This document shows positions 1 to 4,447 of a DNA stretch of 6,393 nt, in pieces. The notes under the pieces were generated by a model, which saw only the letters and a program-made list of their open reading frames with translations, did not search any database and was not told the DNA's origin. This DNA is from Chloroflexota bacterium. GTDB lineage: Bacteria > Chloroflexota > Ktedonobacteria > Ktedonobacterales > Ktedonobacteraceae. The DNA is taken from contig VBHV01000519.1 in the NCBI GenBank assembly GCA_005881995.1, forward strand, positions 1 through 6,393, in the 5' to 3' direction. The position numbers and the translations under genes were made by a program. Within the stretch, counting starts at the first letter, position 1, and each line of letters opens with the position of its first letter.

Positions 1-531
1 TTGATAGATCAAGGGGCGCCGGGCGATCTCCTGGCGCTGCCAGAGTCCCTGAGTCATGGCCTTGCGCAGGGTCTCCGTCCACATGCGATAGGGAATGCTG
101 GTCTCCTGGGCATAGGCGCGGGTCCAGGTAACGGTCCAGCCGCGCCGCCTGGCTTCACGCCCCATCTCCTCGGCAAGACGCGTCTTGCCGATACCAACAT
201 CGCCCAGCAGCAGGACGCATTGATGTTGCTGGCGAGCTTCGAGCGGCGCAATAGGAGCAAGAGCGGAAGCCTTCTTTTGCCCGGTCAGCTTCATCCTTTT
301 GGCCTGCTCGGTTGTGTGCAAAAGCTGCTGCAAGGCGGCGAGTTCCTGGTCGCGTCCTACGAGCTGGCTCTGGTTACTGCGGCCAACCTGCATATAGGGA
401 CGCGCTTCAGGCTCCTGCTGCGGATTGTCTTGCGCCATAGAGATTGGGGACGCACCTGCCAGTGGTAGCTGCGCGCCGCGCTGAGTCGCTTCGTAAAGGG
501 CACGCGTTTCCGGCAGAGGACGGCGGCTTCG
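1..531 (-). pseudogene. Out-of-frame continuation of the BTAD activator: end of BTAD plus AAA+ ATPase domain, partial at the window edge
   Basis: From 531 down to base 1 a second minus-strand frame stays open for 177 codons and runs off the window. It is preceded by in-frame stops at 532-534, 541-543, 559-561 and 568-570, so it has no start of its own at its 5' end. It begins with RPLPETRALYEA, the usual end of a BTAD domain, then has a linker, SQLVGRDQELAALQQLL (the typical lead-in to an AfsR/MalT-type ATPase), and a Walker A motif GDVGIGKT encoded at 204-181. The following residues (RLAEEMGREARRRGW, then YRMWTETLR) continue the STAND/AAA_16-like fold. The nearest internal ATG, at 438, lacks a good ribosome binding site. 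This stretch and the frame at 357-1370 together make up one ancestral activator. It is probably untranslated unless the shift is a sequencing error or ribosomes slip. The Walker B motif and any C-terminal TPR region lie outside the window. Confidence 0.8.
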
Positions 532-1370
532 TTAGCAGGGTCAATGGCCAGCAGTCGATCAAGCGTCTCAATGGCACCGGGTATAGCTTCGCGCGCGATG
601 CGCAGATCGGCCAGTTCGAGCAGCAGCCCGATCCAGCTTCGCTGCAAGCTCTCGCGCCGCGTCTGAATCCATTCGATATGCCGTTCCTCTGGTACGTAGT
701 CTCCGGCGTAGAGCAACATGGCCTCTTCGAGTAGCTGTTCGGTTTTACCGGGATCACTGCTAGCGCGCGCTTGAGCCAGCAGCGCATCGAAGGCATCGGC
801 ATCAATCCAGAGCTGGCTTTGATCGGCAAGCATCAGTGTGGCGTGTTCGGTCAAAAGGAGATTGGAGGTGGCGGGACGACTACGCGCGGGTTCAAAAAGC
901 TGGCGCAGGCTATGCACAGCCTTATCCAGGCGGTGGGTGGCGGTCTCGAAATCGAGTTCGGGCCATAGCAATTCAACAGCTTGCTCGCGACCCAGTTTGC
1001 GCCCGGGAGCGCTGATGAGGCAGGTGAGTAGTGAGCGCACCCGTGAATGCTGCATGGAGGCGTCGGCAACGGTTTGCCAGCGCTGTCCGCTTTGCCGGTC
1101 ACGGCGTTCAAGGGTGAATTGTCCCAGCACATACAGGCGCACCGTCACATCGGTTAAATCCGCTGCGCCTGCTTCCCTGGTATCTTCGCCAACCCCTATG
1201 CCCTGCGCTTCGGCCGGTGGTTGTTTGCCCACATAGGTACGCACGGTACGCCCGTTGATGGTCTGGTATGCATACCAGTAGGGGCCGTGTCCGATACCCT
1301 CGCGACACCTGCGACAGCGCGGTTTGCCACAGTAGCTGACCTGCTGGTGGTAGGTGATCTTGCTATCCAT
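357..1370 (-). CDS. N-terminal part of a frameshifted SARP/BTAD-family transcriptional activator with a DUF6788-like zinc motif
   Basis: This is a 337-residue reading frame from an ATG at 1370 to a TAG at 357. An in-frame TTG lies 10 codons upstream, but AAAGGAGA at 1381-1388 sits 10 nt before the ATG and decides the start. Residues 7-50 hold C14, C19, C22 and H28 followed by GPYWYAYQT, resembling the DUF6788 zinc-ribbon-like module. Residues 76-190 match the winged-helix DNA-binding domain of SARP/AfsR-type activators (VRLYVLGQF, then ELLWPELDFETATHRLDKAV). Residues 190-284 are the BTAD helical repeats (WIDADAFDALL, LYAGDYVPEE, LLAIDPANEAAV). After V284 the similarity stops: the last 53 residues are Arg-rich and do not look like BTAD. 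The expected continuation (LPETRALYE, then the ATPase) is in another frame that overlaps this one. I read it as the front part of a gene broken by an internal deletion. Domain identity is confident; whether the truncated product functions as a regulator is unknown. Confidence 0.85.
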   Translation of the reverse strand: MDSKITYHQQVSYCGKPRCRRCREGIGHGPYWYAYQTINGRTVRTYVGKQPPAEAQGIGVGEDTREAGAADLTDVTVRLYVLGQFTLERRDRQSGQRWQTVADASMQHSRVRSLLTCLISAPGRKLGREQAVELLWPELDFETATHRLDKAVHSLRQLFEPARSRPATSNLLLTEHATLMLADQSQLWIDADAFDALLAQARASSDPGKTEQLLEEAMLLYAGDYVPEERHIEWIQTRRESLQRSWIGLLLELADLRIAREAIPGAIETLDRLLAIDPANEAAVLCRKRVPFTKRLSAARSYHWQVRPQSLWRKTIRSRSLKRVPICRLAAVTRASS

Positions 1371-1380
1371 CTCGTCGCTG

Positions 1381-1388
1381 TCTCCTTT
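1381..1388 (-). promoter_or_regulatory. Ribosome binding site of the BTAD activator
   Basis: On the minus strand AAAGGAGA lies 10 nt upstream of the ATG at 1370. It overlaps the codons that follow the alternative upstream TTG at 1400, so it supports the ATG as the start. Confidence 0.6.
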
Positions 1389-1470
1389 GTGTATCGTCAA
1401 CGAGCATTTGCTGGGGGGATGCTACGCATCGAACGAAACCAAAGCTAGCGTCCAGTCTTGAGACTCATTC

Positions 1471-1661: not shown

Positions 1662-1810
1662 CCTCCAGGGCGACCGCAAGGGTCCCAACCCCACATCATC
1701 CACCGCCACCGCCCTTACAATGACGCGCGGCGACAGGTACCTCCCGTTGTCATTGTAAGGGCGGGAGTGGAGCGGAAGTGGGGTAGGGGCCCTTGCGGTC
1801 GCCCTGGAGG
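1662..1810. repeat. 149-bp inverted-repeat element, two 50-nt units pointing outward
   Basis: The ends are perfect 21-bp inverted arms (1662-1682 and 1790-1810). An inner pair, GCCCTTACAATG at 1711-1722 and its complement at 1751-1762, forms a second perfect 12-bp stem, with partial pairing between them. The right half contains a 50-nt unit at 1755-1804 that starts GTAAGGGCG and ends GGTCGCCC. The left half holds a 51-nt inverse copy at 1668-1718, so the units diverge from the centre. The same unit occurs at 3835-3985 in the opposite arrangement. There is no open frame, transposase or target duplication that I can see. It is most like a REP/BIME- or MITE-like non-autonomous repeat. As RNA it would fold into a long hairpin that could affect transcription toward the sigma gene. 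Confidence 0.8.
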
Positions 1811-1957
1811 TTCGCTGCTGCTTGCACCTTGAGTTTACATATCCTCCACATCCCAAAGAGATATATCCCTTCCCTGGAAGCCATATAGGACATCACAAGA
1901 AGGGCCGCGACGTACACTTACTCCCAGTAAACGAGATTTTGCTGGAGGGAATTTCTC

Positions 1958-2980
1958 ATGAATAGTTTGTTGCAAACAGAGGAAAGAATGAGCGAAGTAG
2001 CAACCATTGGACAGCTGCCTGGGAAAGGCCCGGATCAACTCGCAAAGCTCTATGGACTTGCCAGTATCTCCGGTGTACCAGAGAAGGCGGTTTCCAGTGA
2101 TTCGGCCAGGCTCTATCGAGATGAAATCGGGCGCGTCGATTTGCTGAGCAATGAAGAGGTTATTTGCCTGGCACAGCGCATTGCGCGCGGGCGGGCAGCA
2201 GCTGAACGCCCCAAGCAGCCAGGACATCAGAAGCTGATTGAAGAGGGCGAGCAGGCGAAGCGCAAACTCATCGAGGCCAATTTACGCCTGGTTATTCACG
2301 TAGCGCGTAAGTATAAGGGCCTGGACCTGGACATCATGGACCTGATTCAAGAGGGCAATCTTGGCCTGATCCACGCCGTTGACAAGTTCGACTATACGAA
2401 AGGATATCGATTTAGTACTTACGCCATCTGGTGGATTCGCCAGGCCATCACACGCGCACTCACTGAGCAGGCGCGTATTATCCGTGTGCCGCTGCACAAA
2501 ATGGAGAAAATGAAACGTCTCGCGCGTATTCAGCAGCGCCTGCGGCAGGGCCTGGAGACGGAGCCAACGCTGGAGGACCTGGCGGAACAGATGGAATTGA
2601 GCATTCAGCAGGTGGTTGATTTACTGATTATCACCAAAGCCCAGGAGCCGCTCAGTTTAGATATTCGCCGCAAGGTAGGCGACGATGATCTGCCTTTGAG
2701 CGATCTGCTGGAAGATGACCAGATGAATTCACCTGAACAGATTGTCATGACCCAGACATTGGAAGGGCAAATACGCGACCTGCTTGAGAACCTGACGCCG
2801 CGAGAACGCCAGGTGATCCGCTACCGCTATGGCCTGGATGGTGATCGCGAGCATACGCTGCACGAGGTGGGGCGCAAGCTCGGACTGAGCCACGAGGCGG
2901 TGCGCCAGCTCGAAAGTCGCGCGCTGCGCAAACTTGACCCGTTGAGCCGCAACAGAAAATTGGAAGAGTTTCTAGCATGA
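1958..2980 (+). CDS. RpoD-like group 2 RNA polymerase sigma factor (sigma-70 family)
   Basis: This 340-residue protein directs RNA polymerase core to promoters. The start is ATG 1958, with GGAGGG at 1944-1949 and an 8-nt spacer. Domains in order: region 1.2 at about 48-77 (SARLYRDEIGRVDLLSNEE); regions 2.1-2.4 at about 100-178, with KRKLIEANLRLVIHVARKY, then DLIQEGNLGLIHAVDKFDY, then YRFSTYAIWWIRQAITRAL; region 3 at about 179-235; the 3.2 finger GDDDLPLSDLLED at 241-253; and region 4 at about 265-335, ending HEVGRKLGLSHEAVRQLESR. Region 1.1 is missing and the protein is short, so it is an alternative RpoD paralogue rather than the main housekeeping factor. Region 2.4 keeps the Gln and Thr of RQAIT that read the -10 element. 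The region 4.2 recognition helix reads SHEAVRQ where classical RpoD has TRERIRQ, which suggests a changed -35 preference. A spacer of about 15 residues rich in Ala, Arg and Lys sits between regions 1.2 and 2.1. No anti-sigma gene is adjacent. Confidence 0.95.
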   Translation: MNSLLQTEERMSEVATIGQLPGKGPDQLAKLYGLASISGVPEKAVSSDSARLYRDEIGRVDLLSNEEVICLAQRIARGRAAAERPKQPGHQKLIEEGEQAKRKLIEANLRLVIHVARKYKGLDLDIMDLIQEGNLGLIHAVDKFDYTKGYRFSTYAIWWIRQAITRALTEQARIIRVPLHKMEKMKRLARIQQRLRQGLETEPTLEDLAEQMELSIQQVVDLLIITKAQEPLSLDIRRKVGDDDLPLSDLLEDDQMNSPEQIVMTQTLEGQIRDLLENLTPRERQVIRYRYGLDGDREHTLHEVGRKLGLSHEAVRQLESRALRKLDPLSRNRKLEEFLA

Positions 2981-3002: not shown

Positions 3003-3046
3003 GAAATAACCCCTTTCCCGCCAGCTGGCGGGAAAGGGGTTATTTC
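3003..3046. terminator. Perfect 44-bp palindrome between convergent genes, probable terminator
   Basis: Positions 3003-3046 form an uninterrupted inverted repeat of two 22-nt arms centred between 3024 and 3025, with a GC-rich core around CCGCCAGCTGGCGG. It starts 22 nt after the sigma-factor stop codon and is followed by TTATTTC. The A/T-rich outer ends can act as the U-tract on either strand, so it may end transcription from both sides. Its position between convergent genes fits this role. Confidence 0.75.
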
Positions 3047-3056
3047 ATAAGGGTTC

Positions 3057-3089
3057 AAAAATTGTCGCGACTATACACGCGCGACAATT
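3057..3089 (-). terminator. Rho-independent terminator of the PP2C operon, overlapping the end of the gene
   Basis: On the minus strand AATTGTCGCG (3089-3080) pairs with CGCGACAATT (3069-3060) around a 10-nt loop, and the 3' arm runs into five Ts (3061-3057). The stop codon of the phosphatase gene (3071-3073) lies in the loop, so the 5' arm is still coding. The palindrome at 3003-3046 provides a second stop immediately beyond it. Confidence 0.65.
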
Positions 3090-4447
3090 ACGCTTACGTT
3101 GTCGACTCCGCCGCGATGGAGGGCGGCTTTGACCAGGGCGGCGCTGGCCTGCGAGACATCTGGAAGGCAGCGTTTCAGGATTTTTTCGATCTCGTGGTCG
3201 CGCACCATCTCCCACAGGCCATCGGAACAGAGCAAGAGATAATCGCCTGCCTGAACAGGTTCGGTGAACCAGTCCACCTGCACAGAATCCTTCTCTCCCA
3301 GGCCACGATAGACCTTATTACGGTCAGGATGGGTGTAGACTTCTTCGGCTGAAATGGCGCCAACGGCCACGAGGCGCGCTACCAACGAATGATCGCGTGT
3401 CACCTGCCTGAGCCCTTCGCGATAAATGTATGTGCGGCTATCGCCCACGTTGACGATATAAGCGGTAGATTCGATCAGCAGAGCGGCGGTGATGGTTGTT
3501 CCCAGATCAACATGGTGTTCTTCCCTGTGCTGGTGAATGGCCTGATTCGCCCAGTGCGTACTATCCACCAGCGTATCTATCAGAAATTCCTCGGTAAGCT
3601 CCTCGCCGTTCTGGATGGTCGGCAACACGGTTTGCATCATACTGTGTATAGCCAGGTGACTCGCTACCTGGCCACTGGCATGACCACCCATACCATCAGC
3701 TACGACAAACAAGGAAAGAGGCACGAGCCTTCCATACATAGTACAAATGCTGCGCTGGGCCAGCAGAGCATCCTCGTTAGGCTTGTGCTTGCGCACAATA
3801 CCCGGGTCCCAACCAATTCCAACGTCCTCCGCCCGTAGGGGCGAGGGCGGTTGGGATGTGTGGGGAGGGCCTTTATGGTCGCCCGCTGCTGGTCGGCTCT
3901 CGTGTAAGTCCGAGGTAATGCTCTCCCGTCGCGGCGAGCGACCATAAAGGCCCTCCCCACGGCCCTCCGCCACCCTCGCCCCTACAGCATCGCGATGAGG
4001 TTTTGACATTTTCATCAACGGGGGAGGAGTTAAGGGCGAGGTAGTTCTGGCAAGCGCGGCATAGGCCAGAGAAGCCTGCGGCTCATCAAAGCCTTGATCG
4101 AGCAGATTGTCGGCTGAGGTGCGCTGCCAGTTGATAGCGGCCTGCATGCGTCTCTTTGGTCGGCTGGGCCAGACTAGCACGATACTTACCCATAGCAGCA
4201 GCAGCCAGAGGATGCCCCACGTCAAAGACAGGAATACTATGCCTGCAAACGATGCCAGGGCGATGATACCCCGTGAGGCCAGCAGGCTTCCGATGTGGGG
4301 AGCAGCCCGGGCCAGCAGATACCAGACCTGCGGTGGAAAGCCATCCGAAATGCGCAGCAGCAGTGTTGCAACGCTAATCAGGCCCAACCAGGTAAGACAT
4401 TTCAGCCAGATGTGCATAGCGTAAGCAGTTTTGAATTGCTGTATCAT
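3071..4447 (-). CDS. Membrane-anchored PP2C-family (PPM) serine/threonine protein phosphatase with a repeat-derived linker
   Basis: This 458-residue protein is predicted to remove phosphate from Ser/Thr of proteins in the cytoplasm, probably opposing Hanks-type kinases. Residues 17-33 and 59-93 are strongly hydrophobic, giving two or three membrane helices, followed by the basic stretch PSRPKRR. The catalytic domain spans about 208-458 and has all the PP2C motifs: R219 with NEDA (224-227), DGMGGH (251-256), GTT (316-318), GDSR (335-338), TRDHS (350-354), SDG (408-410) and GGVDN (446-450). The metal-binding aspartates D226, D251, D409 and D449 are all present, so it should be active. Residues 155-205 are encoded exactly by the inverted-repeat element at 3835-3985, which is in frame and rich in Gly, Arg, Pro and Ser; they form the link between anchor and enzyme. 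ATG 4447 follows the upstream stop codon by one base (TGA-C-ATG), implying translational coupling. Unlike RsbU-type phosphatases it has no visible sensor domain. Confidence 0.93.
   Translation of the reverse strand: MIQQFKTAYAMHIWLKCLTWLGLISVATLLLRISDGFPPQVWYLLARAAPHIGSLLASRGIIALASFAGIVFLSLTWGILWLLLLWVSIVLVWPSRPKRRMQAAINWQRTSADNLLDQGFDEPQASLAYAALARTTSPLTPPPLMKMSKPHRDAVGARVAEGRGEGLYGRSPRRESITSDLHESRPAAGDHKGPPHTSQPPSPLRAEDVGIGWDPGIVRKHKPNEDALLAQRSICTMYGRLVPLSLFVVADGMGGHASGQVASHLAIHSMMQTVLPTIQNGEELTEEFLIDTLVDSTHWANQAIHQHREEHHVDLGTTITAALLIESTAYIVNVGDSRTYIYREGLRQVTRDHSLVARLVAVGAISAEEVYTHPDRNKVYRGLGEKDSVQVDWFTEPVQAGDYLLLCSDGLWEMVRDHEIEKILKRCLPDVSQASAALVKAALHRGGVDNVSVIVARV
3835..3985. repeat. 151-bp inverted-repeat element inside the PP2C gene, two 50-nt units pointing inward
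   Basis: The outer ends are GTAGGGGCGAGGG (3835-3847) and its exact complement (3973-3985). Inner arms of 23 bp (3860-3882 and 3938-3960) are also perfectly complementary. The left unit, 3835-3884, begins GTAGGGGCG and ends GGTCGCCC. The right unit, 3936-3985, is its inverse copy. Compared without gaps, the left unit and the unit at 1755-1804 agree at about 35 of 50 positions and have the same two ends, so the elements belong to one family. Here the unit polarity is reversed relative to the copy at 1662-1810. The element begins and ends on codon boundaries of the phosphatase frame (codons 155-205) and contains no stop in that frame. Confidence 0.85.

Follow-up and report, generated by a model that had tools for sequence, protein, structure and literature searches.

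A palindrome of 151 bp lies entirely within a protein-coding gene of the window, the whole stretch of 6,393 nucleotides of DNA analysed here. It raises the question whether a dispersed DNA repeat has settled in this gene and is translated as part of its product. The gene (3071..4447, minus strand) encodes a PP2C phosphatase of 458 amino acids consisting of membrane helices, a linker and a catalytic domain, as indicated by the open reading frame, Pfam and AlphaFold. The inverted repeat comprises two arms of 55 nt (3835-3889 / 3931-3985), which are 82% complementary and separated by 41 nt. A sequence-only reading of this DNA had proposed a 23-bp hairpin. This is right for the perfect pairing in the core; a further 13 bp pair perfectly at the ends of the arms, and a mismatched stretch separates both. 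RNA of the transcribed strand (3833-3987) is predicted to fold with -116.3 kcal/mol (z = -12.8); among 200 dinucleotide shuffles (mean -63.2, sd 4.15) none was equally stable. In the minus-strand frame, codon 155 begins at position 3985 and codon 205 at position 3835. The frame used by the gene is free of stops throughout the palindrome, and both remaining frames of the minus strand are interrupted by a stop. The proposed in-frame palindrome at codons 155-205 was thus confirmed in position, pairing and frame.

An AlphaFold model of the phosphatase was built from 45 sequences and reached a mean pLDDT of 65.5. It contains helices at residues 2-34, 40-59 and 61-92 and a folded domain from about residue 209, and the Pfam PP2C matches start at residues 219-221. 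The palindrome is hence located between the membrane helices (2-92) and the PP2C domain (from about 219), as had been suggested. Values of pLDDT below 50 were obtained for residues 96-205, besides residues 1-3, 352-361 and 363-377. From the low values for residues 96-205, disorder is predicted for the linker that holds the palindrome.

The palindrome (3835..3985, minus strand) is a dimer of two GTAG-type REP units of about 49 nt, arranged head-to-head with the GTAG ends outside. One unit (3937..3985, minus strand) has the sense direction of the gene and reads VGARVAEGRGEGLYGR. The other (3835..3883, plus strand) is antisense to the gene, in which it reads GDHKGPPHTSQPPSPL. The spacer (3884..3936) was defined by subtraction. 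A 17-base core pattern of the unit matched 5 of 47 genomes of the class Ktedonobacteria, and the reversed control matched none; therefore the palindrome is not a chance repeat. With two mismatches allowed, the reversed control matched four times in five genomes, in G023 and G025, with no match in G045-G047. The exact core pattern had no match in viral contigs. Using the whole element as DNA query, none of four genomes (G001-G004) was matched; with the unit profile, 22 weak matches were subsequently obtained in G002. The whole-element query was superseded by the core pattern and then by the profile, named R1.

Profile R1 was built from 19 units, four from the window (both units of the palindrome among them) and 15 from G025, G045, G046 and G047. 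It yielded 187 matches in 7 of the 47 class genomes, with up to 119 candidates scored per genome: 83 in G047, 25 in G025, 22 in G002, 21 in G046, 18 in G023, 17 in G045 and one in G024. The matches in G025, G045, G046 and G047 arise partly by construction, since the 15 training units come from these genomes. G002, G023 and G024 contributed no training unit, so that their matches are independent; the matches in G002 are weak (best E 6.4e-5). Several units of G047 are situated close to contig ends, as is expected if the repeat breaks assemblies. A six-frame search with the peptide gave matches in 9 of the 47 genomes, the best with E 0.0013.

All 19 aligned units share the motifs GTA and GGGCG without exception, and the middle is variable in sequence and length. 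The fourth base, following GTA, is G in 16 units and A in three, two of which form the intergenic pair of the window. Folding of single units is weak, with z between -0.8 and -2.3 in four of them; the strong hairpin comes from the pair. A 6-bp GGGCGA/TCGCCC stem directly after GTAG, closing about 34 nt, was predicted in two of the four folded units, where folding is weak. In the window and 80 loci fetched from G047, G046, G045, G025 and G023, with G002 and G024 left out, 105 units (E <= 1e-3) form 85 clusters. Dimers among these clusters are oriented head-to-head (8), tail-to-tail (10) or head-to-tail (2).

The window harbors two REP pairs, its own genome being counted within the window only. 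The second pair (1662..1810) is a diverged copy, recognized by its inverted repeat and by the profile. It represents a tail-to-tail dimer with GTAA ends inside, and its units (about 1667-1719, minus strand, and about 1754-1805, plus strand) both contributed to the profile. This pair is intergenic and flanked by the divergent open reading frames 357-1400 (minus) and 1958-2980 (plus). The latter encodes a sigma factor of the sigma-70 family (regions 1.2, 2, 3 and 4) and is convergent with the phosphatase gene. A perfect 22-bp palindrome at 3003-3046 separates the two convergent genes and is possibly a bidirectional terminator. An Rfam scan of the window returned nothing at gathering score.

Homologues of the phosphatase numbered 7806; 120 of them were listed, and 44 of these 120 were aligned with the window protein. 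Several of the named homologues belong to Ktedonobacteraceae, which makes an origin of the window in the Ktedonobacteria probable. Among the 120 listed, both REP units are present in P0001, P0002, P0003 and the fragment P0036, and P0004 contains one altered unit. In P0001-P0004 (91-98% identical), the frame is open throughout. All length changes are in frame: P0002 carries 22 more codons in the form of an additional sense unit, P0003 is shorter by two codons, and P0004 has 23 additional codons ahead of the element and no second half. Further bearers are P0032, in which the sense unit is present twice, P0043, which combines one sense unit with a distant half of antisense type, and P0041 with a decayed remnant. 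A tree calculated without the linker columns divided the REP-bearing proteins into two groups with the REP-free P0038 and P0044 between them, which needs two changes; P0041 was labelled as REP-bearing in this tree though only a decayed second half remains.

The element has changed faster than the catalytic part in P0003 (40/49 versus 240/250 identical residues) and in P0004 (16/38 versus 241/250). Change in the element was not faster in P0001 (50/51) and hardly so in P0002 (48/51 plus 22 inserted). These relatives bear on two functional explanations. An internal start at a GTG at residue 159, after AGGGGCGAGG, would yield a soluble phosphatase of about 300 amino acids beside the anchored one. 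The GTG is present, as is an upstream purine-rich stretch, which we liken to a Shine-Dalgarno sequence. However, the start is not kept, because judging from the proteins P0003 lacks the valine and P0004 has another residue in its place; an internal start is very unlikely. The hairpin of the mRNA might instead be what matters, slowing ribosomes or setting mRNA decay between anchor and enzyme. The very stable predicted fold would suit such a role, but the loss of the second unit in P0004, as judged from the protein, would undo the dimer hairpin, and P0032 carries direct copies only. A decisive role of the hairpin is as improbable as the internal start.

REP-free homologues outside both REP-bearing groups are represented by 35 aligned rows. 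They are 60-71% identical and have different linkers, with lengths of 65-85 amino acids in the 31 rows measured (four rows are without measurement). The linker of the window phosphatase minus the element has about 34 amino acids. This difference weighs against a simple addition of 50 residues and suggests that the element displaced linker sequence or that the linker was turned over. The sequence-only reading had named collinear orthologues lacking just residues of about 155-205 as support. None was found among the 120 listed homologues of the 7806, near-identical ones included. Of the overall reading, the dispersed in-frame palindromic family in a predicted disordered linker held up, and the orthologue lacking only this segment did not appear. 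The presence of linkers in REP-free homologues and the lack of an empty site among the aligned homologues would also fit an ordinary GC-rich linker, palindromic by chance or local inversion and not mobile in origin. That view is hard to reconcile with the dispersal of the unit in seven genomes and with a second pair in intergenic DNA of the same window, and its probability is close to nil.

Further searches for relatives were of limited yield. PP2C loci of the class genomes (L081-L110) yielded no more than a couple of unit matches, two in number, partial and located in L082 (E 0.03). A contig scan with the single phosphatase protein gave 219 stretches and no relative, and a scan with the phosphatase alignment recovered mostly distant PP2C loci. 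The window peptide (residues 153-207) as protein query retrieved three proteins among 33 candidates, all phosphatases. This query was short in reach, as P0003, P0032 and P0043 were not returned.

The peptide of P0032 led to unrelated proteins. It retrieved 6 of 242 candidates including P0032 itself, with P0125 only at E 0.028. The MFS transporter P0121 contains two sense units. The FtsQ-type POTRA proteins P0122-P0125 contain two REP-encoded peptides each in the N-tail, and the spacers differ among relatives. Since this search was tied to one phase, the loci were surveyed in a frame-blind manner. The survey covered 101 units in 80 loci, the window excluded. Seventy units are intergenic, 13 lie at gene edges and 18 inside genes, with genes defined by codon-score calls; random placement would give 14% intergenic, 20% at edges and 66% inside genes. 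Units inside genes are strongly depleted yet present. Less-supported intragenic cases are those in L212 and L229 (open reading frames of about 70-80 amino acids), two units in L264 (a 162-amino-acid frame) and one in L261 near an uncertain N-terminus. The better-supported set comprises 13 units in 11 open reading frames. Pfam was applied to ten of the 11 (L275 was left out) and identified a domain in nine; L209 had none.

The host proteins are diverse. Units were located in the N-part of a methyltransferase (L213), between the lipoyl and E3-binding domains of a 2-oxoacid dehydrogenase E2 (L221), in the N-tail of an SLT transglycosylase (L260), in the N-part of a NUDIX protein and in a two-module FAD oxidase (both L230), in an FtsX-type permease (L248) and in the C-tail of a molybdopterin enzyme (L236). 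Intragenic units thus occur mostly in linkers or tails; those of an Eco57I-type methylase (L278) and a FAD_binding_3 enzyme (L279) instead fall inside the region covered by the Pfam match.

Insert-free collinear orthologues were found for two of these proteins, the FAD oxidase and the FAD_binding_3 enzyme, and not for the phosphatase. Nineteen orthologues of the FAD oxidase have 53-58 amino acids where the G047 protein has 135. The surplus consists of a head-to-head REP pair and a short three-fold repeat. Directly behind the pair in the G047 linker (L230:351-3275), this repeat reads REQSSGGIPSH. A REP pair is present at the same place in the FAD oxidase of G045, whose row L254, a partial open reading frame, was dropped from the comparison. 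The linkers of G045 and G047 differ, by eye, in both synonymous and non-synonymous changes. In L324 (G045:C328:11300-14600), a frame shift precedes the pair and the TAG of GTAG terminates the first half, due either to an error in sequencing or to a genuine split of the gene. The FAD_binding_3 enzyme has 65 amino acids at the insert, compared with 34-45 in 13 of its 14 orthologues; the fourteenth (L313) is truncated.

Reading phases were determined for 102 units; 3 of the 105 were dropped as GTA was not found at the start. The sense phase starting with GTA is open in 101 units, the TAG phase in none and the AGG phase in 83, and the antisense phases are open in 92-97. Shuffles that kept base content alone were open in 67% (sense) and 86% (antisense). 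The counts are not independent, because the units are related by descent. A stop-free sense phase in 101 of 102 copies, most of them noncoding, might indicate that R1 REPs have been shaped to survive inside genes. The RAYT-REP pair would then provide a standing supply of disordered linkers, reused in PP2C, FtsQ-type, MFS, E2 and oxidase proteins of one bacterial lineage, an idea that we consider unlikely. The 13 units of the better-supported frames are read in the sense GTA phase (3), the sense AGG phase (5) and antisense (5). This spread of phases bears on the possibility that the VGAR...EGLYGRPP segment is a selected peptide module with a specific job in PP2C, FtsQ-type and MFS proteins. A near-identical peptide in the same phase, often in two copies, indeed occurs in these three unrelated families, and two separate PP2C groups carry it. 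The searches that revealed it, however, themselves used that phase, and the segment is largely lost or altered in P0003 and P0004. A selected module is quite unlikely. As several frames are in use, a tolerated insertion appears better supported than a selected peptide.

RAYTs are HUH-type, REP-associated tyrosine transposases. The NCBIfam RAYT model NF047646 (cut-off 80 bits) was applied to 12 genomes. Matches at E <= 0.001 were obtained in ten, and one match passes the cut-off. In the five genomes with a match of at least 60 bits, best scores are 64-89 bits. The two best RAYT frames, from G047 (165 amino acids) and G046 (179 amino acids), are each positioned between inverted units of the R1 family. 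In L281, the frame at about 777-1271 is bracketed by units at 684-737 (plus) and 1339-1392 (minus). In L282, the frame at about 1417-1953 is bracketed by units at 1323-1376 (plus) and 1942-1996 (minus), the latter overlapping its end. Bracketing was hence detected in two of the five scanned loci of at least 60 bits (L281-L285); no R1 unit was present in L283 and L284, and L285 had only partial units (E 0.046). The bracketed RAYT is likely the mobilizer of the R1 family. Occurrence of both partners varies among genomes. In G004, RAYT was matched (74 bits) and R1 was not; conversely, R1 was matched in G023, G024 and G045, where no RAYT match exceeds 43 bits, in assemblies that may be incomplete. 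PF01797 was uninformative, being present in 41 of 47 genomes.

Taken together, the palindrome is a GTAG-type REP dimer that was very probably moved by a RAYT and is translated as a tolerated flexible spacer in the phosphatase linker. The R1 family, found in part of the Ktedonobacteria, would be mobilized by a RAYT-type HUH transposase, and one dimer would have settled in the linker that joins the membrane helices to the PP2C domain. Intragenic copies may be retained at places that tolerate extra codons, for the most part linkers and tails, and the open sense GTA phase together with the mostly open antisense phases would suit the unit to translation. The element appears to be translated, judging from the open frames and the intact flanking domains. 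Residues 155-205 would then form a flexible, changeable spacer, most likely without a sequence-specific role. With insert-bearing and insert-free orthologues, several unrelated hosts and a transposase candidate from one lineage, the route from selfish DNA repeat to protein would become traceable. The neutrality or use of such linkers and the action of RAYTs on intragenic REPs would become testable.

GTAG REPs, including those of Chloroflexi, and REPs inside genes have been described before (PMC3733652). That paper does not mention Ktedonobacter, and a literature search gave no description of the R1 family in Ktedonobacteria. R1 REPs share with GTAG REPs the GTAG foot, head-to-head and tail-to-tail dimers, and a mostly intergenic location with some copies in unrelated open reading frames (PMC3733652). 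In the tabulated GTAG structures, a stem of 5-13 bp adjoins GTAG and closes a loop of 2-20 nt (Table 1, PMC3733652); the R1 unit is about 49 nt long, its G-rich middle is variable, and the loop, in the weak folds predicted, is longer, at about 34 nt. R1 REPs are best regarded as a further GTAG REP family with an unusually long unit.

The likeness to Rickettsia palindromic elements, raised in the sequence-only reading, is valid in kind, given the in-frame copies in unrelated open reading frames. The published elements likewise are palindromes of about 150 bp found in frame in unrelated genes with recurrent peptides (PMC10969869, PMC3733652); the R1 family uses several phases. RPE-4 and RPE-6 are classed with the CGTC repeats, not with GTAG, in the REP study (PMC3733652). 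The bracketed genes resemble REPtrons in having a RAYT gene between inverted units of one REP family and a GTAG foot (PMC6006769). A single NF047646 match exceeds the 80-bit cut-off, and the bracketed genes are candidate transposases. For the Ktedonobacteria lineage, the published picture of GTAG REPs is extended here by insert-free orthologues and by RAYT genes lying between units.
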